Part shown: in pieces, positions 37,903 through 59,972 of the stretch | How the letters are laid out: the number at the start of each line of letters is the position of its first letter | Numbering within the stretch: position 1 is the stretch's first letter | Source: a virus | Length of the DNA: 64,000 nt | Reading direction: 5' to 3' (one strand) | Virus record (IMG/VR): IMGVR_UViG_3300034140_000002 | Span: 1-64,000 of that record | The notes under the pieces: generated by a model | What the model was told of the DNA's origin: nothing | What the model saw: only the letters and a program-made list of their open reading frames with translations | Databases searched by the model: none | Position numbers and translations under genes: made by a program

Positions 37903-38418
37903 TTAGTCCTGCACGTAATACAACCTCAAGCCTTTATTCAAAGCTTCCTTCAATACTGCTGCGGGAGTTGCCCTCCCACCTAAATCTAGCCCTGACAGAC
38001 GCCTTGCTGTAATGACATACTCTGCACACTCCAACACATCATCTGCACCAATCTCCAGCTTATCCAAGTAAGCTAAGATAGCCTGCCACTTAGAATACTT
38101 GCCCTTGCCAATATGGGACATCAGATATTCCATCTCCACATCCTGCATAGGTGTACGAGTGGGAACAATGTAGAAGCCATCCTTAGCGAAGTTGCTGAGT
38201 GGCACAAGCCTAGCTAGTGGGGATACACTTTCTGCAATAAACACCCTCCCAGCAATCTTCACCACAACTCCTACATGGGTGTACTCCGTAAAAGAGAACA
38301 GCCGAACAAGCATAACCTGAGCATCATATAGCGATGCCCATTTATAATGACTAAAGAATACTAAATCTCCAGACTCTAAGCTATCCCTACAATCTTCGTA
38401 AGTAACTTTTTCACTCAT
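37903..38418 (-). CDS. Permuted papain-fold (YiiX/YebB-like) peptidase or amidase
   Basis: 171 residues. Y-T-H-V-G-V-V-V (catalytic His), A-E-S-V-S-P (acidic), and a late E-C-A-E-Y (catalytic Cys) are in the circularly permuted order of the NlpC/P60 superfamily (His before Cys). G-D-L-V-F-F at the start is also typical. In phages such enzymes are tail-associated or act on peptidoglycan peptides. It lies between the tail tip genes and the lysis genes. ATGA overlap upstream. Confidence 0.75.
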   Translation of the reverse strand: MSEKVTYEDCRDSLESGDLVFFSHYKWASLYDAQVMLVRLFSFTEYTHVGVVVKIAGRVFIAESVSPLARLVPLSNFAKDGFYIVPTRTPMQDVEMEYLMSHIGKGKYSKWQAILAYLDKLEIGADDVLECAEYVITARRLSGLDLGGRATPAAVLKEALNKGLRLYYVQD

Positions 38419-50047: not shown

Positions 50048-51010
50048 TTAAATTTGAGCGGCTTGTGCCACTTCTGGGGTTGCTAGGGGTTTCTCTGTTG
50101 CCAGAGGTGTTACGAATGATAGTAGTGCTGGTAAGTCAACGTTGAGGAAACATTCTGTACTTCCGTTATAAATTGCATCAACCTGCTTGTAATTCTGCTT
50201 GAGGTAGGTATGGCAGGCTTGTTCTAAGTTCCACACAAGTTGTCCATCATCGAAGTAGAAAGCAGCAATGATGTCCAGTTTAGGGCCACCTGTGCGTATA
50301 ACTTCTTTGACACGTATCTCAGGCTTACGGTTAGTGATTCCAACTTTGGTAGTGTTGTTATCAGAGAGGATATATAAGTAACCTGCCTTGTTTTTACGAA
50401 AGCCGGTCTCAGCACACTTAGGACAACCTTGTCCTTGTAGGAAGTTGCTAGGTATGGCTGAGAAATCCCCATGATGCTTACAGTGAATAGTTACTTTAAC
50501 TTTGTCACCTTGATACACAGTATCTGGAAAGGTATAGTTATCGTTACTAAGCGACTCGCACTCGTTAATGAATTCCTCTTGCGTTTTGGTCTGTTTTAGG
50601 TTTCTTACAAGTTGTGCGCATTTAGGACACTGCTTACCTTTCATCCTATTAGTTGGGGACATAGAGAACACCCCATGATCTTCGACATTGCAGATAATGT
50701 CGACCTTAGTATCTTTATTCTTATATTTGACTAGGCTATGATCGTAGTGTGGCTTAGTGGCAAGGCTACGATTTATGAATTCTTGTGTTGTCAGACGTTG
50801 CGTATCCGCAGCATTTTCCTTTCCACAAGTCGGGCATCCGTTTCCTCCGCTATGAGAATTTGGGGACTGCCAAAAGAAGGTTCCATGTTTTACACAACCT
50901 ATTTCTACTTTATTTTTAGAGTCTAGGTAGACAAGTTTGGAATAATCATGTTTAATTTTGTGCTGCTCTGGCACAGTTGCCAGCCATGTTTCTGTGTTAA
51001 GTCTTTTCAT
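50048..51010 (-). CDS. Free-standing GIY-YIG homing endonuclease with zinc-ribbon repeats
   Basis: 320 residues. Three C-P-x-C... zinc ribbons (residues about 38-65, 104-136, 155-200; each with H-G-x-F and G-x-x-C-P-x-C), typical of DUF723 repeats, followed by G-Y-L-Y-I-L-S-D...T-K-V-G-I-T-N-R-K-P (GIY-YIG nuclease). It sits between the tail tube and chaperone genes and can spread by cutting empty sites. The ribosome binding site is inside a hairpin (see 51011). Confidence 0.85.
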   Translation of the reverse strand: MKRLNTETWLATVPEQHKIKHDYSKLVYLDSKNKVEIGCVKHGTFFWQSPNSHSGGNGCPTCGKENAADTQRLTTQEFINRSLATKPHYDHSLVKYKNKDTKVDIICNVEDHGVFSMSPTNRMKGKQCPKCAQLVRNLKQTKTQEEFINECESLSNDNYTFPDTVYQGDKVKVTIHCKHHGDFSAIPSNFLQGQGCPKCAETGFRKNKAGYLYILSDNNTTKVGITNRKPEIRVKEVIRTGGPKLDIIAAFYFDDGQLVWNLEQACHTYLKQNYKQVDAIYNGSTECFLNVDLPALLSFVTPLATEKPLATPEVAQAAQI

Positions 51011-51537: not shown

Positions 51538-51900
51538 TTAGTAAGGTGTTACGATTGCGGCACGAACTACTGCACCAGTTGCTGCGGTGATTGCTACGGT
51601 GCCGTTCAGGTAAGCCTTAGCTTTATCCAGAGCTACCATTGCGAAACTATTAGCTGCTACAGTTACTGCCAAACCAGAGGCTACCGAGAGGGTGGCACCA
51701 GCCGTATCAGGAACTGTAATAGTAGTGCCAGCAGAGCCGTCAATAGTGACTACCACTGGGGAAGCCGACGTATTGCAAAGAATAAGTTCTTGGCCTTGAT
51801 CTGCTGTGTAAACAAGAGTGTCTCCCGATACTGCCAACAAGATACTGGCAGGGGTTACAGGGGCCAAAGCATTTTTAGATGTTACTGCTACAACTGCCAT
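51538..51900 (-). CDS. Virion structural protein, 120 aa
   Basis: Ala/Val/Thr-rich beta protein (TVAITAATGAVVRAAIV) with start AAAAGGAAATAAC. Sits just upstream of the tail tube gene. May decorate the tail tube or capsid. Family not recognised. Confidence 0.6.
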   Translation of the reverse strand: MAVVAVTSKNALAPVTPASILLAVSGDTLVYTADQGQELILCNTSASPVVVTIDGSAGTTITVPDTAGATLSVASGLAVTVAANSFAMVALDKAKAYLNGTVAITAATGAVVRAAIVTPY

Positions 51901-51911
51901 GTTATTTCCTT

Positions 51912-52325
51912 TTAATTAGATTCATCCATACGGTATGGAATAATGATGGGAATGATTCGCCAGCCCGAATCAAGCATCGCGCTCTTAGCGCTAGCAGGGG
52001 CTTCAACGGATACGGGTAAGAGTGTCTTAGGGAACACAGGAAACAACTGTGCAATTTCTTCTGCAATGGCTTCACCCTGCCCAGCGCCCTTACTATCTTC
52101 ACACCACACGTTCACTTGAAAGTCACCATAAAAACGTCTCTTAGAGCCGTCTAGGGTAGCTACAATAGTGTTTGCAGGAGTGAAGAATGCCTCTAAGAAG
52201 GGTGCGTTATCAAGAGGCTTAGAAAAGGACTCACCTTCACGGGAAATCTTAAGGGGTGGGGAGTAGCTGGAAGCGAAGGCTGCGAGGGCTGTCATAAACT
52301 TTGCACGAATAATCGTTTGGGACAT
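51912..52325 (-). CDS. Tail terminator-like protein (DUF4128-type)
   Basis: 137 residues. D-F-Q-V-N-V-W-C-E-D-S-K-G-A-G-Q-G and a later W-R-I-I-P-I-I-I-P match the tail terminator/minor tail group; gene order (neck gene, terminator, tube) fits. Stops growth of the tail tube and attaches it to the head. Confidence 0.7.
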   Translation of the reverse strand: MSQTIIRAKFMTALAAFASSYSPPLKISREGESFSKPLDNAPFLEAFFTPANTIVATLDGSKRRFYGDFQVNVWCEDSKGAGQGEAIAEEIAQLFPVFPKTLLPVSVEAPASAKSAMLDSGWRIIPIIIPYRMDESN

Positions 52326-52771
52326 TAGATATATTTTCCTTTCAGATTATTAATAGCTTTGCCAGTGAACCCGTAAGCCTTAACTTTTCCACTCCACTTC
52401 CATCCGTTTGTACTTTCTTCAGCAGGCCAGCCAAGCTTGTCTGCACGATAACTATACCCCATTGCGTTCGTAAGGTAGATTGTGTTATCCTTAGTGTAAA
52501 ATAGGGACAAGTGCTGCACACCCCGGATACGCATCAAACTTTCGCTGCCTGTGAGGTCGGGGCCGTTAGGGACGGGAACAACAACTTGTCCAATAGAGAC
52601 ATGCCAGTTATTAGCAATGTCCCCGTTGGAGAAGCCGCCGTAGTTGATGTTTTTATAGCCTGTCAGTGTAACTAGCTCTGTGCCAAGGTATTCAAAAGCT
52701 TTGCACACACTAGTATTCATGCCTAAATTAGCCTTGTGTTCAAAGGCCCTAATCTGAGCTTCAAAATTCAT
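52325..52771 (-). CDS. Head-tail neck protein, HK97 gp10-like
   Basis: 148 residues. Order just before the tail terminator (one base overlap, TAATG-type). Sequence (GDIANNWHVSIGQVVVP... SLMRIRGVQHLSLFY) is beta-rich, consistent with the neck-joining family. First gene of the tail unit under the promoter at 52797. Confidence 0.65.
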   Translation of the reverse strand: MNFEAQIRAFEHKANLGMNTSVCKAFEYLGTELVTLTGYKNINYGGFSNGDIANNWHVSIGQVVVPVPNGPDLTGSESLMRIRGVQHLSLFYTKDNTIYLTNAMGYSYRADKLGWPAEESTNGWKWSGKVKAYGFTGKAINNLKGKYI

Positions 52772-52858: not shown

Positions 52859-53179
52859 CTATTTAGTAATGTCTTGAACATAATTATAAGCGTCCTTGAC
52901 AAGCGTCCTGACAGCCCCGTTAGCTTCAGTAAGCTGGATATCATAGTAGAAAAATCCTACTTGATTGGCCTGCTCAGCCGTGGGGGAGAAAGAGATGCTA
53001 CTGTCAAACAAGCTGATAACACCCGGCACCTGATAAATCTGCGAGGTCGTGTCTACAGGGTTGCGGAGAGTGTTGAGAGTCATCACAGCAGTGCAACCTG
53101 CCAAGTCTACTGGAAGCGTATTGTAAGACACTGTGATCACATCAGCGGATGTATCTCCGCGAGTTCTGTTTAGTTGCAT
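52859..53179 (-). CDS. Structural protein with BppU-like pattern, 106 aa
   Basis: MQLNRTRGDTSADVITVSYNTLPVDLAGCTAVMTL is similar in pattern to the BppU/upper baseplate family (T-R-G-D-T near start, L-x-x-C/A). Ends in a Gln-Ala helix. Last gene of the accessory virion module. Function uncertain. Confidence 0.55.
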   Translation of the reverse strand: MQLNRTRGDTSADVITVSYNTLPVDLAGCTAVMTLNTLRNPVDTTSQIYQVPGVISLFDSSISFSPTAEQANQVGFFYYDIQLTEANGAVRTLVKDAYNYVQDITK

Positions 53180-53181
53180 AT

Positions 53182-54057
53182 TTACTCTCGCTTAAATGTG
53201 ATTTTGTACTTAGGGTTTTTGAATCTAACTTTTAAATTGGCAGGTATTGCAGACACACTTCCCGGAAGGGTTGTAAGAATATAATAGGAATCATTTGCTT
53301 CAATCCAATTAATGCTTCCATACGCTGGTTGAACTACGGAACCAAGTATGTGCATGATGTCATTGACCTCGGACCAATACACACCAGCAGATGCAGGCTG
53401 ATGTAATGTAACCTGAATATTAAGACCGTCATCAGCCTCCAGCCACGAAACCATTCCAGTATTTACGCCTAATATACTGGCCGAGATGTTGTGGCTGTCT
53501 GGCTCCTCAGTATACGATGTGTTGGTAGTTACCTGCAAGAAGCTTAGTAGGGACGTAACATCGTCCGCTTCTGTCCAACTTACAACACCTACATTTACCC
53601 CTGTAAGCTCGGCAACCACTAACACTACATCATCAGCTTCTGCCCAGTTTATGCTGCCATTCAAAGGGATTGTTATTGCTGCTGACATTGACATGATGTC
53701 GCTAGATTCTGTCCATGCCATTATACCAGTACAATCTTGTGACATGTTCAATGTTACAGTTTGTGTACCTAAATCAACTCCATCTTCTCTAAGCCTGTAC
53801 GTAAAAAAGGATGTAGGTCCATCATAAGAAAAACTACCATCCTCGTAGGCAAAGAATGTACCAATTCCGGGGGGAGTCTCCACAAAGCCTGAGTACTCTT
53901 TGTTGGCGTCATCAGGTAGGTTAAGGTCATTATATAAGTAGCTAGGCCCGTTGTCTCCTACTGATGGGACAGCAGAGCCTAGTACACCAAGTCCCCTATT
54001 CCCGAAATGAAAAGAGGATGCAATAAGAGGTGTATCGAAACGGAAGCTCATTGTCAA
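53182..54057 (-). CDS. Repeat protein with [WY]-x-E-x-D-D repeats, 291 aa
   Basis: The first 110 residues are a beta-rich cap (FDTPLIASSFHFGNRGLGVL). From 113 on, seven tandem repeats of about 23 residues share W/Y-[TAL]-E-x-[AN]-D-[ID] (WTESSDI, WAEADDV, WTEADDV, YTEEPDS, WLEADDG, WSEVNDI, WIEANDS), a beta-solenoid-like arrangement. Overlaps by four bases with the next gene, which has four more copies. A host-surface or calcium-binding shaft is plausible; function unknown. Confidence 0.8.
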   Translation of the reverse strand: MTMSFRFDTPLIASSFHFGNRGLGVLGSAVPSVGDNGPSYLYNDLNLPDDANKEYSGFVETPPGIGTFFAYEDGSFSYDGPTSFFTYRLREDGVDLGTQTVTLNMSQDCTGIMAWTESSDIMSMSAAITIPLNGSINWAEADDVVLVVAELTGVNVGVVSWTEADDVTSLLSFLQVTTNTSYTEEPDSHNISASILGVNTGMVSWLEADDGLNIQVTLHQPASAGVYWSEVNDIMHILGSVVQPAYGSINWIEANDSYYILTTLPGSVSAIPANLKVRFKNPKYKITFKRE

Positions 54058-55529
54058 ACCGCCGTATATTTCTCAACACCTAGTACACCAGCGGCGTTTG
54101 ACACTACTACTACATATTGCACGCCCGGAGTAAAACCCGCATTTGAGATAGTCAACACCCCTGATGCATCCGTAGTTCTGGCTGTAAAATTACTCACATA
54201 AGTAAGTGTAGTAATATTTAACACAGTGACTGTTAAAGATGTCAAGTTGGCTAGCACACTCCCTGTGTTATTTTTAAAAGGTGCTGTGGTTATCGTGGTG
54301 ACTGTTGTGACACTCCCTGTAATAGAGGATGTATCATTGACTTCGGCCCAAGACACAGTAGAAGATATAGAAGAACTTCCCGAAACAGTGTGTGTGTCAT
54401 TAGCTTCTGTATAGGACACAGAACTTGTAATTGATGTTACAACCACATTAGTGGAAATGATATGAACATCATCTACTTCAGTATATGTGCAACTCGCTGA
54501 GACAGTAGAAAAATATATACTAGCCGTCACACTTGTTACGTCAACATCTTCTGTGTACGTAATAGTTGCTGATGGCGTACTAGCAGCAGACTCCCACGCA
54601 CCAACATCATATGCTGCGCCTTGCGGGCGGGTAGTTCCAACAATATCAGCAGACGCATTGCTGACATCCGTTGTACCCACATTAAGTAAGGGGGATGTTG
54701 TAGCAAGACGCAGATCGTGAGTACCAATACTGATGTTTTGAAAAGTACCAGTTGACAGTGCAGCGACTGAGTAATTCGTTGCCGTAGCATTGCTGTAGCA
54801 TGCTGTTTTTGTAGCGGCAATAACCCCATCTTCAGGAGCAACTACACCGCCCACATAACAGTTCTTCATAATCGCGCTGATCGAGCCGGTTATGATTCCG
54901 TAAGTCAGTGGGGTAGCGCCCAAATTGACGAGTGTGCAATTAACTACCGTCGTCCCGTTCGTGAACGCCGCGATGACAGCAGCGGCGTCGTTTTTAAGCT
55001 GGGCGATATAGCAGTTCCGCACAAAACTCGCGGCAGTGGTCATCCGGAATGCGGCTTTGATTGAGGTGTTAACCCCGTAGCTTTCAAAGATGCAGTTATC
55101 GGTAGTGATATTTGTAACGCCTGCGCCAGAAGTATAAAAAGCAGGTTGCGCAGTGCTGCCCGTATTAGTATTGGCAACCTGTAGCTTCGTAATCCGCATG
55201 AAAGACTGCTGGACGTTGATTGTCGCACCCGCCGCCGTGCATCGGATTGCCGCCCCGACTGATGCGTTGTATCGCCCCGGATTCGTGGCGCGGTTCGCGT
55301 GGTCCATAAACGAGCAGCCCGGAGCGGCGGTCAATTCAGGGTAGCGTGTGGCGTCAGCGGTCTTTCCACTAAAAACGATGCTTGCGGTAATTACGAATTC
55401 CTGATTAAGCAACAAGCCACGGTGAACTTGGTCAGCCGTAATCATATTGGTAGGGACAGAAGCCCACCATGTAGGGATGTCTGGGTAAGCCCCTCCAGAG
55501 CCAATAGTCGATTCAATAATGGTTGCCAT
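54054..55529 (-). CDS. Beta-helix-like virion protein, 491 aa
   Basis: Residues 60-310 carry beta-helix repeats (N-x-x-F/I, V-x-N-C, T-V-V-N-C-T-L) as in pectate-lyase-type tailspikes. From about 315, four repeats (YTEDVDV, YTEVDDV, YTEANDT, WAEVNDT), 21-24 residues each, match those in the next gene. The C-terminal 80 residues are an Ig/fibre-tip-like domain (TVTVLNITTLTYVSNFTARTTDASG). Polysaccharide binding or cutting is plausible, no catalytic site seen. Confidence 0.7.
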   Translation of the reverse strand: MATIIESTIGSGGAYPDIPTWWASVPTNMITADQVHRGLLLNQEFVITASIVFSGKTADATRYPELTAAPGCSFMDHANRATNPGRYNASVGAAIRCTAAGATINVQQSFMRITKLQVANTNTGSTAQPAFYTSGAGVTNITTDNCIFESYGVNTSIKAAFRMTTAASFVRNCYIAQLKNDAAAVIAAFTNGTTVVNCTLVNLGATPLTYGIITGSISAIMKNCYVGGVVAPEDGVIAATKTACYSNATATNYSVAALSTGTFQNISIGTHDLRLATTSPLLNVGTTDVSNASADIVGTTRPQGAAYDVGAWESAASTPSATITYTEDVDVTSVTASIYFSTVSASCTYTEVDDVHIISTNVVVTSITSSVSYTEANDTHTVSGSSSISSTVSWAEVNDTSSITGSVTTVTTITTAPFKNNTGSVLANLTSLTVTVLNITTLTYVSNFTARTTDASGVLTISNAGFTPGVQYVVVVSNAAGVLGVEKYTAV

Positions 55530-55543
55530 TGAGATGCCTTATA

Positions 55544-56719
55544 TTATACTGTGAAAGAGGCTGACACCCAAGTGTTAGCTGATGGTATGGTCACTAATTG
55601 AGGGGTTACGGTAGCCAAAAACACGTCACTAATAGGTTCCACCATAACTGTGCGAGAACCTAGCTTACTCGTGACCTCGCAAGACCAGCCAGAAGATGTT
55701 TCTACCACATTTCTGAAGCTCAGCCCGATATTAATGCCCCCCACCAAGTCCACATTAGGGTCTTGATCCCCAGAGTGCTCCGTGAAGAGTGGGTATCCTT
55801 TACCTATCGTGAAAGTGCCGTAAGGGTAGCTGCCAGTAATCTCAGCCATAATAGAGCCAGTACTATGATCGCCATTATTCCAAGCAAACGCAAAACCGCG
55901 CTTAGCTGTACGTAGAGCATTCACAGCATCAATGTTCTCTTGGAACACAACAAAACCATCTTGCCTTCCGCAGCACCAGCCTAACCACGGAATTTTATTG
56001 CTTGTGTTACTAACGTATGCTATACAATCTTGTAGCACAGATACTTTACCACCTCCGTCCTCAGGGGATAAAAACGGTGAATTTGCCACAGGTACAGTTT
56101 CAAGAGCGCCTAACCAGTTTGCCACTGCCACGTTACCAATTGTACTGTACCTCCAACGGGGGCGGTCAGGGTAGATAGCAGCAAAGAGATGCTTACGGCG
56201 AATGCCAAAAGTCATAGTCCCCCACCCGCCCATAGAACCTCCAGTTAGGCAGGTTTTGTTAGGTAGACAAGGCACGTTTGTGCTTGCCCACTTCATTAAT
56301 GACTCTAGACGACGTTGTGTCACAAGAGCTACGTCTGACCCATAATTAGGTGTGTTTTTAAACCCCATCCACATGCTTTCACGGCGAGCGGAATTCGTTA
56401 CATTTAGGCCGTATTGGTCCACTGGCCTGAGTAACACGATAGAGGTATCAGTGCTGTTGACCAAACTAAACCTAAATGTGTTGTAAGTACCAACAGCAAG
56501 GTCATTACTAACTATTGCGTCGTATTGACGACCTGTGCTAGTGTTCTGTCCGCCACTACCGTGAAGTTGCAATATCAGAATTTTAGACGCTGTGGCTCCG
56601 GGGGTTCCACTACCTTCTAGTGCAACACTTACTGAATCGAAGGGGGCAATTTTATAACGGCCACCCTTCATTACTGTGCCGGAGGCTCCGTTGTAGATTT
56701 TAGCTACCGGCGATGCCAT
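55544..56719 (-). CDS. Alpha/beta-hydrolase esterase, virion-associated
   Basis: Start at MASPVAKIYNG, where ATG shares a base with the previous stop (TAATG). G-G-S162-M-G-G is the nucleophile elbow; H-G-S-G-G (53-57) the oxyanion loop; D254 (C-G-R-Q-D-G) and H285 (N-N-G-D-H) complete a Ser-Asp-His triad. An additional C-terminal beta domain (residues about 300-391) may attach it. Esterases of phage spikes deacetylate capsule or O-antigen; the substrate here is unknown. Confidence 0.78.
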   Translation of the reverse strand: MASPVAKIYNGASGTVMKGGRYKIAPFDSVSVALEGSGTPGATASKILILQLHGSGGQNTSTGRQYDAIVSNDLAVGTYNTFRFSLVNSTDTSIVLLRPVDQYGLNVTNSARRESMWMGFKNTPNYGSDVALVTQRRLESLMKWASTNVPCLPNKTCLTGGSMGGWGTMTFGIRRKHLFAAIYPDRPRWRYSTIGNVAVANWLGALETVPVANSPFLSPEDGGGKVSVLQDCIAYVSNTSNKIPWLGWCCGRQDGFVVFQENIDAVNALRTAKRGFAFAWNNGDHSTGSIMAEITGSYPYGTFTIGKGYPLFTEHSGDQDPNVDLVGGINIGLSFRNVVETSSGWSCEVTSKLGSRTVMVEPISDVFLATVTPQLVTIPSANTWVSASFTV

Positions 56720-57111
56720 TAGGCGTTTCCGCGAGTGGCAGTCCAAGCTGTTACAGCAACAGTTACACCTACTGTGATAGATGCTGTATTCAGAATCATA
56801 TCCGTGCCAGCAGTGCCAGCCGAGCCATCAATAACATGAGTCGTACCGTCTGCCTTAGTCACACGGAACCATGTAGCAGTTCCTACGGCTGCACCAGTAG
56901 TGTTAGCAGGAAGTGTAGGGGACAGTACAGCCGCAGATGCCGCAGGGGCGAATGGGCTACCTAGAGTAAACTCTGCAAGCAGATTGGTAGCAGTGCCACC
57001 AGTTGCTGGGCGAGCACCGTCATAAATACGCAGTTTAGCACCAGCACCTGCAAAAGTTGTAATTGCATCCATTTGCGCGTTGCGCAGTGTTACGTTATAG
57101 CCAGTTGCCAT
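56719..57111 (-). CDS. Virion-associated beta protein, 130 aa
   Basis: MATGYNVTLRNAQMDAITTFAGAGAKLRIYDGARPATGG: beta-rich, Ala/Thr-rich protein of a type common in phages of betaproteobacteria (from memory), unknown role. Starts after TTTAAAGGAAACAAAA. Coupled with the esterase. Confidence 0.65.
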   Translation of the reverse strand: MATGYNVTLRNAQMDAITTFAGAGAKLRIYDGARPATGGTATNLLAEFTLGSPFAPAASAAVLSPTLPANTTGAAVGTATWFRVTKADGTTHVIDGSAGTAGTDMILNTASITVGVTVAVTAWTATRGNA

Positions 57112-57132
57112 TTTTGTTTCCTTTAATTAAAT

Positions 57133-59562
57133 TTAGATTACTATCACAGGGTGTATCGAGCCAACAATCTCACCGTTACTATTAAAAATCACTGCGGTGT
57201 ACTTCGCACCACTTGTCAAGGAGTTGTCTACAATTTCAATTACTCCGGCTGAATCACTTTGTAAATTAGAATAAAACTTAGTGTTGCTCTCGCTACTCAA
57301 GGTAACTGTCAGCCCCTTTAAATCTCTAAAGTGAATATTCGTAATCAGCATTTTTGCAATTGGTGTTACAGGTGGTGGTGGAACAACTACCACAGGGGGT
57401 AATGTCTCACTAGGAGGTTGCGGGGGTGTTACAACTGCCGAGGTGCGAGGAACAATAGCAAACTGAGGGCTAGTATTGTAGTCAGGTTTAGTCTTGCGAC
57501 TCATAAATAGTGCCCAAGCCTTGCTGCCACCTTCATATCCACTGTCTGTTGCATAGGCCAAGGCAGGTTGGTAATTAGATGGAAAGCCCGCTGTAGCCCC
57601 CGGATAGCCTGTAAGTTCAACCACAGGGCTGCAAACAAGCTCTGCTACCTCTTTAGTATTATCCCAACATTGCTTTAGGGTTTTGTAAAAAGGTTGTGCC
57701 AGCTTAGCGGTTGTATCAACCGCAGCGGAGTCTTTAACTCGGATAACGTACATTGCCGCATCATTGGGGCAATACCCATCTGCAATCATCCTACCTACTT
57801 GAAACTTAGCTTTCCACTTAAGCAGTCTGCCAGCCTCTTCACAACCTAGTTCTGCTGCATGCCCTACTCCTTGCGTAAAGAAGTCATCCATATAAAGTGA
57901 CATGCCAACTCCTGCGATACCTTTAACTGCATAAGGTAAGCCCGGCGCTGCATCCAAAATCATGCCCAACTCGTTGTGTACAACTGGGTCAACTACTGTT
58001 ACTCTGCGCTCTACAACCTTTACACCGCTGGACGAACCATCCGTAAAGTTAATCCGGTAGTACTCCATAGTGTTATCCAGCCAATACTTGAAAGCGGTCT
58101 TTTGAGGGTGGCTGTCTGGAGTGATATAAGCAGCTTCTGCTAAAGTCCTAATAGACCACCCTTGGCCCCTTATTTGGTCAGACTTAACCCAGCCTTTTTC
58201 AAACATCCTGTAATACGGGTTGCTTCGGTAGGCATTATAATTGCACCAGAATAGAAGTTCCTCTAGGTAGAAATAATCTCCTGTGAGCAAGTAGGGTATA
58301 TAGGCAAAGGCAGGTTGATGTGATGTATCATTCTCTAATTTGCTAGCAGTGACTACAGGAGGTAATTTCTCATACTGCTTAGTGGCAGGGTTGAGGGTGT
58401 CACCCGGATTTCCAAGTATAGTCGCGTAAGGATACTTGATAACATCCAGCATAGTGTCGTCAGGGAGGCGTCTGTGAGCAGCCCAACTTCCTGCAACGTT
58501 TGCTGATTCTAGCATCAAGGCTTTAGCACGTTTATCCCCACTAATAATAGTGGCTGCGTAACAATCGGGTGCCAAGCCAATATCGGGACGACCGCCCGGA
58601 GCGGACATTACAGGTTGAAAACGCCCTGTAGCCATAGGCTCGAATGAGAACTTTTTCAAATCGGCTGCATAGCTTGCAAGAGTTATCTCCGACATTACAA
58701 TAGACGGGTCGTAGTTAGGAACAGCTTTGGTAGCTATGAAGTATGCCGAATTATGCTTAACATGCAGACTAGGTTTGCCACCTTGCCAGAAAGTCTTCTT
58801 CCAACGAGCGCCGGGAAAATGCACCAGCCCTAACTTACTGTAGACTTCTACACCGTCTGAAATAATCTTCACATCGTAGGTGATGTCAACTTGGGCCGGG
58901 ATCGGTGCTGGATTAGGTACGGCTTCTGTAGGGGCTAGGAATTTGAAACCGTTAGTGGTGTAGGTGTTAGTGTGCTCTAACGTTACGTCGAACTTGGCTT
59001 GACCTGTTGAATACGTACGCTCGTTAATCTGCACCCTGAGGAAAGGATGTTTATCGCCTCTTGCAGAAATCAAATCTTCAAATCCAATAAGCTCCACTGC
59101 AACCGGGCCAAGTAACCAACCCTTACTGTTATGGGCTTGAGCACGATATTCTATTCCTGCCTCAACCACCACGACCTCTACGTCTTTTGCACGTAACTGG
59201 TGATCTGGGGCTTCCGTCTTCAAAGATCGGATAAGGAACATTTCTCCGTTTTTATGAGTAACACCACTGATAATGCCGTGACGTACCGAGCCATCTTTGT
59301 GGGTAGCTTTAACATCTAATTGGAGGGGGATATCTTCAATCCCTGTGATACGTCCTACAAGAGTATCCGTAGGAGCTAACTCGCCAATCTTGAACACTTG
59401 CCCGAATGTGAATGGAGATACCTCTGCCACATCTTCAAAAACTACTGTTGTAATTGCTCCGCCAACAGGTACACTGGGGGATGTGAAAACAGGGGCAACA
59501 TACTCGGGTAATTTAATAGCTGGGGTGCCGGGTGTTTGCAAAGGGGTTGGTGTAATTGCCAT
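57133..59562 (-). CDS. Putative carbohydrate-active virion protein, alpha/alpha-toroid type, 809 aa
   Basis: Residues about 20-270 are beta-rich (RIFT-like barrel: TVVFEDVAEVSPFTFGQVFKIGELAPTD). Residues 300-640 are helical with Trp/His/Tyr patterns (LPDDTMLDVIKYPYAT, TSHQPAFAYIPYLLTG, FFTQGVGHAAELG), as in alpha/alpha-toroid lyases (PcRGLX/YetA-like). A Pro-rich linker (PPSETLPPVVVVPPPPV) leads to a C-terminal 70-residue beta domain. Polysaccharide lyase or binding protein is inferred. It overlaps none of the head genes but lies just after the head closure gene. Confidence 0.55.
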   Translation of the reverse strand: MAITPTPLQTPGTPAIKLPEYVAPVFTSPSVPVGGAITTVVFEDVAEVSPFTFGQVFKIGELAPTDTLVGRITGIEDIPLQLDVKATHKDGSVRHGIISGVTHKNGEMFLIRSLKTEAPDHQLRAKDVEVVVVEAGIEYRAQAHNSKGWLLGPVAVELIGFEDLISARGDKHPFLRVQINERTYSTGQAKFDVTLEHTNTYTTNGFKFLAPTEAVPNPAPIPAQVDITYDVKIISDGVEVYSKLGLVHFPGARWKKTFWQGGKPSLHVKHNSAYFIATKAVPNYDPSIVMSEITLASYAADLKKFSFEPMATGRFQPVMSAPGGRPDIGLAPDCYAATIISGDKRAKALMLESANVAGSWAAHRRLPDDTMLDVIKYPYATILGNPGDTLNPATKQYEKLPPVVTASKLENDTSHQPAFAYIPYLLTGDYFYLEELLFWCNYNAYRSNPYYRMFEKGWVKSDQIRGQGWSIRTLAEAAYITPDSHPQKTAFKYWLDNTMEYYRINFTDGSSSGVKVVERRVTVVDPVVHNELGMILDAAPGLPYAVKGIAGVGMSLYMDDFFTQGVGHAAELGCEEAGRLLKWKAKFQVGRMIADGYCPNDAAMYVIRVKDSAAVDTTAKLAQPFYKTLKQCWDNTKEVAELVCSPVVELTGYPGATAGFPSNYQPALAYATDSGYEGGSKAWALFMSRKTKPDYNTSPQFAIVPRTSAVVTPPQPPSETLPPVVVVPPPPVTPIAKMLITNIHFRDLKGLTVTLSSESNTKFYSNLQSDSAGVIEIVDNSLTSGAKYTAVIFNSNGEIVGSIHPVIVI

Positions 59563-59576
59563 ATTTGCCTCAATAA

Positions 59577-59972
59577 TTATTTACGGATGTACATTTCGTA
59601 CAGGATATTATCTTCGGCTGATGTGTTGTACTCTTTGACTGCTACAATTTTCCAGCGTGCATTATTAATTATTACGTAATCGCCTGTAGGATTTGCCAAC
59701 ACAGCGTCTGCAAATACATCTGCTTTTTCAGTTGGACGAATGTACAGGAGTTGGTCACCCTCTAGTATTTGTGAATTAGCATTGCTGGTAATTCCGTTAG
59801 TAGGGCGTGGAAGTTCTAGCTTGATCGCTTGTACAGAGATTTCTGTAGTGGGGGTGGATATAGTTCCATTGGAATCATCTGCCACAGGCTCACCAATAGA
59901 GTAGTAAGTAGTAGTGAATCCAAAGTCTGAGAAGAACTCCCCAATCATATTGTGGAAGTCACTGAATCTCAT
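59577..59972 (-). CDS. Head closure/stopper protein
   Basis: 131 residues. N-terminal short helix then beta (TYYSIGEPVADDSNGTISTPTTEISVQAIKLELP), with Q-L-L-Y-I-R-P and W-K-I-V-A-V-K-E-Y at the end, typical of head-closure proteins. Overlaps the upstream connector by 4 bases. Closes the portal after packaging. Confidence 0.7.
   Translation of the reverse strand: MRFSDFHNMIGEFFSDFGFTTTYYSIGEPVADDSNGTISTPTTEISVQAIKLELPRPTNGITSNANSQILEGDQLLYIRPTEKADVFADAVLANPTGDYVIINNARWKIVAVKEYNTSAEDNILYEMYIRK

Follow-up and report, generated by a model that had tools for sequence, protein, structure and literature searches.

Bases 52859-59562 of the window, a 64,000-nucleotide stretch of viral DNA (positions 1 to 64,000 of IMG/VR record IMGVR_UViG_3300034140_000002, which has 93,664 bases in all), hold a cassette of six genes, C1 to C6, between the head-closure and neck genes of a long-tailed siphophage. 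We think it probable that this cassette is an exchangeable, virion-borne module for attack on the host surface and its polysaccharide, situated at a hot spot between these two structural genes. Related phages have no block at this position or have different genes in it, C1 has a predicted fold like that of PL26 polysaccharide lyases, C3 bears a complete candidate esterase triad, and domains are shared within the cassette and with other phages. As a first-pass annotation of this DNA had described, all six open reading frames lie here in one direction, on the minus strand; its statement that they mostly overlap did not hold, as overlap occurs at one of the five internal junctions (two of five if C5 starts at TTG 54057). 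The gaps are 14 base pairs (bp) from head closure to C1, 21 from C1 to C2, -1 from C2 to C3 (TAATG), 14 from C3 to C4, 2 from C4 to C5, 2 from C5 to C6, and 87 from C6 to the neck gene. Because homologues occur in other phages, the cassette is more than a run of chance reading frames. The genes and the borders of the interval that they occupy (the slot) are as follows.

59577-59972, minus strand: head-closure gene, upstream slot border (phrog_161, E 2.9e-8)
57133-59562, minus strand: C1, 809 residues, PL26-like three-domain protein with a C-terminal beta domain (predicted fold, Pfam, and shared-domain profile)
56719-57111, minus strand: C2, 130 residues, small virion-type protein (phrog_3758; family of 9rkv_A)
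55544-56719, minus strand: C3, 391 residues, predicted alpha/beta-hydrolase-type esterase (motif and conservation; start at ATG 56719 in a reading frame that opens at TTG 56746)
54054-55529, minus strand: C4, 491 residues, putative beta-helix (three strict and four relaxed repeats; C-terminal domain in common with C1)
53182-54057, minus strand: C5, 291 residues (five strict and seven relaxed repeats; basic C-terminal tail; shared N-terminal domain)
52859-53179, minus strand: C6, 106 residues, small protein (phrog_1084)
52325-52771, minus strand: neck/tail-completion gene, downstream slot border (phrog_169, E 8.5e-4)

The slot varies among related phages

We collected 31 related loci by their capsid protein (68-85% identity, the 85% value over 55 residues only) and counted slots in the 18 whose contig spans the interval from the end of the head-closure gene to the start of the neck gene. 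The 13 dropped loci, in which the contig ends before the neck gene, were L007, L010, L012, L013, L018, L020, L023, L030, L031, L033, L035, L037, and L039. Slot genes were generally read on the plus strand only, and on both strands for L015, L024, and L036. The slot, 6,806 bp long in the window, was empty in 5 of the 18 relatives (0 bp in L025, 2 bp in L032, and 55 bp in L017, L028, and L038) and filled in 13, with 1.0-10.7 kb of differing genes: 1,031 bp in L022, 1,250 in L016, 3,590 in L034, 3,598 in L019, 4,021 in L014, 4,253 in L011, 4,722 in L021, 5,504 in L029, 6,818 in L015 (through L070), 6,901 in L008, 7,236 in L024, 7,653 in L036, and about 10.7 kb in L009 (through L075). This comparison of gene order bears out the earlier suggestion that the cassette is accessory and contradicts a fixed block. 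Searches of the five empty-slot records, which may be fragments, for C2, C1, SASA esterases, and a family that we call LDYGFDW gave no match at E <= 0.001. On a capsid-protein tree of 17 relatives and the window, from which L025 was omitted (55 residues of capsid protein), the four empty rows needed four changes (3.7 on average after shuffling), of which supported branches impose at least two. Because this tree is weakly resolved (4 of its 15 inner branches are starred), it shows scatter of the empty slots rather than a count of events; the filled loci L016 and L022 are the sisters of L017, whose slot is empty.

Recognizable enzymes recur among the cargoes. SASA esterases scored over the Pfam cut-off in L009, L011, L015, and L024 and below it in L021 and L036, and C1-type proteins were present in L015, L024, and L036, so that a SASA or C1 protein was found in 6 of the 13 filled slots, with the SASA scores of L021 and L036 weak. 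Each of the four C1-bearing slots also has a gene for an esterase or a similar protein, and two unrelated types occur (C3 in the window; SASA over the cut-off in L015 and L024, and in L036). L036 is the weak case: its SASA protein, 35% identical to the L024 protein, scored below the cut-off and was missed by the Pfam search of its record. Among smaller proteins, C2 recurred in L019, L029, and L034, C6 in L009, L011, L021, and L036, and the phrog_240 family in the same four loci as C6. The last slot gene in several relatives belongs to the LDYGFDW family, which lacks a sequence match to C6 and occurs in L009, L011, L014, L019, L024, L029, and L034; in L009 and L011 it forms part of a longer fusion protein. 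Other slot domains were FN3 (L008, L014), Ig-like (L008, L036), lectin-like LamG just below its cut-off (L008), and a weakly kelch-like protein in the place of C3 in L029 (17.7 bits, cut-off 50); the incomplete slot of L037 carries an M14 peptidase and kelch. A second conserved kit was visible in L019 (11949-15493), L033, and L034, consisting of C2, a 95-residue protein, a protein of about 480 residues, and a repeat protein, with an LDYGFDW protein in addition in L019 and L034; the 490-residue protein of L019 had no PHROG match.

C1 is predicted to adopt a PL26-like fold

The first-pass annotation had read C1 as alpha/alpha-toroid-like, and the predicted structure agrees. An AlphaFold model made with a 23-sequence alignment (pLDDT 82.4, pTM 0.82), which replaced a model from 4 sequences that was too poor for use (pLDDT 38.9), has N-terminal beta domains and an alpha/alpha toroid (together residues about 30-710) and a C-terminal beta domain (about 737-809). 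When this model was compared by VIA-align, four PL26 entries (PcRGLX) came out on top (Z 13.1-13.3) in alignments of 492-498 residues across model residues 30-710, whereas the next-best families scored Z 9.9 and lower and mainly covered the toroid. The model thus has the three-domain PL26 arrangement with a central alpha/alpha toroid, and C1 would be a PL26-like lyase. We use the term PL26-like and do not file C1 as PL26, because PF19501 (PcRGLX_1st) scored 17.4 bits in C1, below its cut-off of 22.1; the same family reached 29.9 bits in the homologue from L015 and stayed below the cut-off in those from L024 and L036. Foldseek comparison of the model with viral models returned two unnamed or uncharacterized proteins (E 1.8e-15 and 9.7e-9).

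When viral contigs were scanned with the C1 sequence alone, no locus was confirmed. A profile scan yielded 22 loci, three of which were second views of L036, L024, and L015, leaving 19 other C1 loci. Among the best 80 of 262 cellular relatives, identity was 34-42% and most came from Massilia and other Oxalobacteraceae. One viral C1-like protein (L077:439-2538, from the record of L037) has a lipoprotein-type signal (LAGC), lies far from structural genes, and looks like a captured host gene.

C3 carries an invariant candidate triad

The triad candidates of C3, Ser161 (GGSMG), Asp253 (GRxDG), and His284 (NGDH/NGNH), numbered as in alignment A10, were invariant in seven of seven sequences, so that the complete esterase triad noted earlier, a GxSxG nucleophile with Asp and His, stands by motif reading. 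Translation most likely starts at the ATG and not at the upstream TTG. Because no curated family reached its cut-off (Peptidase_S9 14.1 bits, Esterase 12.6 bits), the label 'esterase' rests on this motif, its conservation, and weak matches to PDB esterases (E 0.03-0.1). Neither C3 nor C6 had a match among phage records.

Small virion-protein families, repeats, and shared domains accompany the predicted enzymes

C2 matched phrog_3758 over residues 4-127 (E 2e-24), and its profile matched 9rkv_A (E 5.3e-10) and, more strongly, 44nx_B, named 'Structural protein' (E 2.3e-16). It also matched genes 7-7-1_000103 (E 5e-14) and 7-7-1_000105 (E 1e-21) of Agrobacterium phage 7-7-1, which lie beside a 587-residue fibre gene, and C2 is thus a full-length relative of the small phrog_3758/7-7-1 tail-fibre protein. 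The LDYGFDW family of the sister slots matched 8jou_D, a 'Virion-associated phage protein' (E 1.3e-14), and gp57 of phage BcepIL02, in which gp55, gp56, and gp57 are all annotated as virion-associated; a search of the PDB with gp56 gave nothing. The description of C6 as BppU-like found little support, as PF10651 (BppU_N) scored 13.3 bits against a cut-off of 23.1, and we regard the label as weak. The C6 profile returned one PDB entry, a cadherin (E 0.041), which we took as chance.

The [WY]-x-E-x-D-D repeat of the first-pass annotation is real but is not confined to one protein, as both C4 and C5 carry it. Strict copies ([WY]xEx[DN]D) number three in C4 and five in C5, with means in 1000 shuffles of 0.0 and 0.009, and relaxed copies ([WYF]xExxD) number four and seven. 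The repeat is not fixed in the family: the L029 homologues have one copy each, and the 12 C4- or C5-like proteins of L044-L049 have none. C4 had no Pfam or PHROG match. A profile built from the C-terminal domain of C4 and its relatives, without C1, found the end of C1 (E 1.9e-6, 20 window proteins), and the N-terminal domain of C5 is common to L029, L044-L049, and gp42 of EBPR siphovirus 1.

A different domain, that of the 120-residue gene at 51538-51900, recurs at the C-terminus of slot proteins L008:10753-13563 and L015:19793-20806 and is perhaps a docking domain. Its profile also caught FN3-bearing proteins, and only BLASTP matches in L008 and L015 were counted.

Comparison with L029 revealed a mosaic. 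At the DNA level, identity to the window was 76.9% across C2 and into the very start of C3, above the 69-72% of the head genes, was undetectable over the body of C3, and resumed where C4 ends and C5 begins (67.7%). The L029 protein in the place of C3 matches C3 over its first 34 residues, about nine of which fall in the stretch overlapping the C2 gene. Elsewhere, L044 has C2-C3-C4-C5 in the order of the window, and L045-L049 have C3 followed by C4-like or C-terminal-domain proteins together with the C5-type N-terminal domain. The available flanks of these L044-L049 cassettes yielded neither a head-closure nor a neck gene. C1 and C2 also adjoin in L058 and L071. In L048 (5893-10637), C3- and C5-like genes stand directly upstream of an S49 protease match, which recalls a pre-protease site in Curvibacter phage P26059A.

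A proposed mechanism and its alternatives

In the arrangement that we favour, the cassette products would form a virion appendage that the small proteins C2 and C6 and the fibre-like C4 and C5 build or dock, and the common C-terminal domain of C1 and C4 would dock both at one place. C3 would remove ester groups from an acylated, probably uronic-acid-bearing, host polysaccharide, and C1, as a PL26-like lyase, would cleave the chain; the proposed substrate derives from the known cutting range of PL26 enzymes. To suit the host coat, phages would exchange either the entire kit or just the enzyme that lies between conserved small genes. The polysaccharide-modifying role that had been predicted is supported by the PL26-like fold, the invariant C3 triad, and the SASA proteins over the cut-off in four sister slots.

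Several results weigh against this reading. In the window, C1, C3, and C6 all fell short of the Pfam cut-offs; Foldseek of the C1 model against the PDB gave no match at E <= 0.001; and PL26 chains were absent from the PDB matches of C1 sequence searches, including those of the 23-sequence profile, so that no sequence match links C1 to the catalytic residues of PL26. Because 7 of the 13 filled slots (L008, L014, L016, L019, L022, L029, and L034) had no SASA or C1 relative in all-against-all comparisons, many cargoes are not demonstrably enzymes. Outside the clade, a SASA profile match was present in just 2 of the 19 other C1 loci (L057 and L069; many loci are cut), and the lyase-esterase pairing is rare there as far as these loci show. 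A location of bacterial C1 homologues in exopolysaccharide clusters was not supported by sampled neighbours, which formed no consistent polysaccharide cluster: every second locus of the best 80 was taken (40), 32 entered, and the 94 open reading frames, chosen by length and some probably spurious, showed S9 peptidase (8), cytochrome c (7), and Acyl_transf_3 (7) as the most frequent Pfam families, besides 2 glycosyl transferase and 1 MBOAT. In PHROGs, 'head and packaging' is the category of phrog_3758, to which C2 belongs, and of phrog_240, the alternative small protein. Finally, incorporation of the products into virions is inferred.

Where the proteins would sit on the particle bears on the first alternative, a neck or collar appendage in which they decorate the head-tail junction and the enzymes work there. 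The clade inserts do lie between head-closure and neck genes, C1 lies upstream of the major-tail-protein gene in the same direction in 4 of the 19 other C1 loci (L056, L058, L066, and L069), and the PHROGs category of the two small families fits. Yet the 7-7-1 tail-fibre model includes a member of the C2 family, Vibrio phages VP16T and CKB-S1 encode C2 relatives amid their tail and baseplate genes, the C1 gene of L064 directly follows the tape-measure gene, and P26059A, EBPR siphovirus 1, and Faith1 carry components of this cassette or its sister slots elsewhere in their genomes. Because of these other sites, the gene site is poor evidence for head or neck mounting, and this part of the earlier proposal of an accessory, polysaccharide-modifying head or neck set found no clear support, whereas its other parts were supported. 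The family clues point both ways; mounting on the tail, at its tip or side, is somewhat likelier than on the head or neck, and we consider the neck or collar appendage unlikely. More specific still, and rather unlikely in our judgement, is a neck-mounted, swappable enzyme port in which an esterase and a PL26-like lyase let the neck digest acylated polysaccharide with or instead of the tail tip, the kit being exchanged between phages.

The enzymes themselves might be inactive folds that grip polysaccharide without cutting it, as the roles of C1 and C3 are argued from fold and motif and many slots hold no recognized enzyme, but the C3 triad is invariant and a second esterase type, SASA, stands beside C1 in three other slots (one below cut-off), and we find this doubtful. 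Non-virion enzymes, produced late and freed by lysis so that progeny meet a thinner matrix, are more doubtful again: the C1 homologue with a lipoprotein-type signal in L077 does lie outside the structural genes, but the window C1 lacks such a start, its gene stands with C2 to C6 in a single series with structural genes, its neighbours include fibre-type repeat proteins and members of small virion-protein families, and the shared C-terminal domain joins C1 to C4. A standard neck module, fixed throughout this phage group, would fit filled slots at the same position but is contradicted by the five relatives without the block and by the differing content of the others, and we give it almost no weight. 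The favoured reading remains an exchangeable, virion-borne module for polysaccharide attack.

Genomic setting

The structural genes on the minus strand run from an S49 protease through a 189-residue gene (taken as the scaffold), a lambda-D-like decoration protein, the major capsid protein, a head-tail connector, and head closure to C1-C6, and then through the neck protein, tail terminator, 120-residue gene, major tail protein, a zinc-finger-type gene, and two genes taken as tail chaperones to the tape measure. The labels 'capsid', 'connector', and 'chaperone' were assigned in part from gene position. Two further genes directly downstream of the neck gene are:

51912-52325, minus strand: tail terminator (Pfam Phage_tail_terminator_5, E 2.1e-13)
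51538-51900, minus strand: 120-residue gene between the tail terminator and major tail protein

A treble-clef/CapR-type gene (DUF4379, CapR; 50048-51010, minus strand) lies between the major tail protein and a tail chaperone. Its relatives in L012, L014, L015, L017, L021, L022, L024, and L025 occupy many different places among structural genes, a placement that resembles that of a homing-endonuclease family. Near the endolysin and spanin genes, the gene at 37903-38418 (minus strand) weakly matches Peptidase_C92, a permuted papain-like amidase (19.2 bits, cut-off 27). Among cultured phages, the closest capsid proteins are those of Limnohabitans phage DC31 (42%), two Pseudomonas phages (43%), and Curvibacter phage P26059A (40%); together with the cellular C1 relatives, these sequences give a weak hint of a Burkholderiales host.

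Significance and comparison with known systems

Enzymatic spikes of phages are usually encoded after the tail genes, and such spikes are the usual object of study in phages able to remove sugar coats. The cassette is unusual for its gene site more than for its parts, which are of known kinds. The new points are a PL26-like protein in a row of phage structural genes, the pairing of lyase and esterase in the clade, and the hypervariable slot. Listings of open-licence papers included none that evidently dealt with such a cassette. If the slot is an enzyme port, annotation directed at the tail end only would overlook genes that set host range throughout a phage group. New enzymes that cut polysaccharides might be drawn from a PL26-like family common to phages and Oxalobacteraceae chromosomes, and slots that range from empty through small to large inserts provide natural material for a study of how phages acquire and exchange kits.

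The C2 family links the cassette to Agrobacterium phage 7-7-1, for which 9RKV is the 'tail fibers' model (PMC12796354). From its length (141 residues) and place beside the fibre gene, 7-7-1_000103, which probably encodes 9rkv_A, would be the garland protein gp014. The tail of 7-7-1 is contractile, unlike that of the siphophage in the window. A second link is P26059A, a cultured phage of Curvibacter isolated from freshwater and identified as a siphovirus by TEM (PMC5964084). Its gene 0004 matches the LDYGFDW family (E 1.4e-5), 0005 is a C2 homologue (E 1.1e-18), and 0007 encodes a repeat protein (31% identical to C5 over 162 residues). These related parts, 0004-0007, lie between the 'structural protein' gene 0003, taken as the portal, and protease 0010, and a single gene separates head closure from tail terminator. 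EBPR siphovirus 1 has a C1 homologue (gp39, 29%), a match to the C4 C-terminal domain (gp41), and the C5 N-terminal domain (gp42). These genes, gp39-gp42, stand between its terminase (gp33) and head-protein (gp47) genes, and C2, C3, and C6 had no match in its record. In Faith1 and Vasanti, members of the LDYGFDW family are encoded amid the minor tail genes that follow the tape measure; Mae-JY28 has its member late in a block of mostly unnamed genes, and Madraxi ahead of the terminase.

The LtfC collar of phage DT57C is a ring of small beta proteins that hold fibres by added strands (PMC10713586). An L036 slot protein resembles LtfC (PF23926 LtfC-like, E 0.043, 14.8 bits, below the cut-off of 27), but no cassette protein of the window matches it, and the likeness is one of analogy only. 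Among virion-associated sets, gp55 of BcepIL02 and the small protein of L009 and L011 are both phrog_240 members, and gp56 of BcepIL02 by eye resembles a repeat protein with a basic tail. The 8jou structure is, we presume, that of the podophage GP4 fibre; compared with it and BcepIL02, the window has C6 in place of the LDYGFDW family. PcRGLX (PDB 5xqg, 5xqj, 5xqo, and 5xq3) differs from C1 in sequence, at 10-11% identity, in lacking the extra C-terminal domain of C1, and in the Pfam scores of the window, L024, and L036 proteins, but shares with C1 the three-domain alignment and, through the L015 homologue, a PcRGLX_1st domain over its cut-off.

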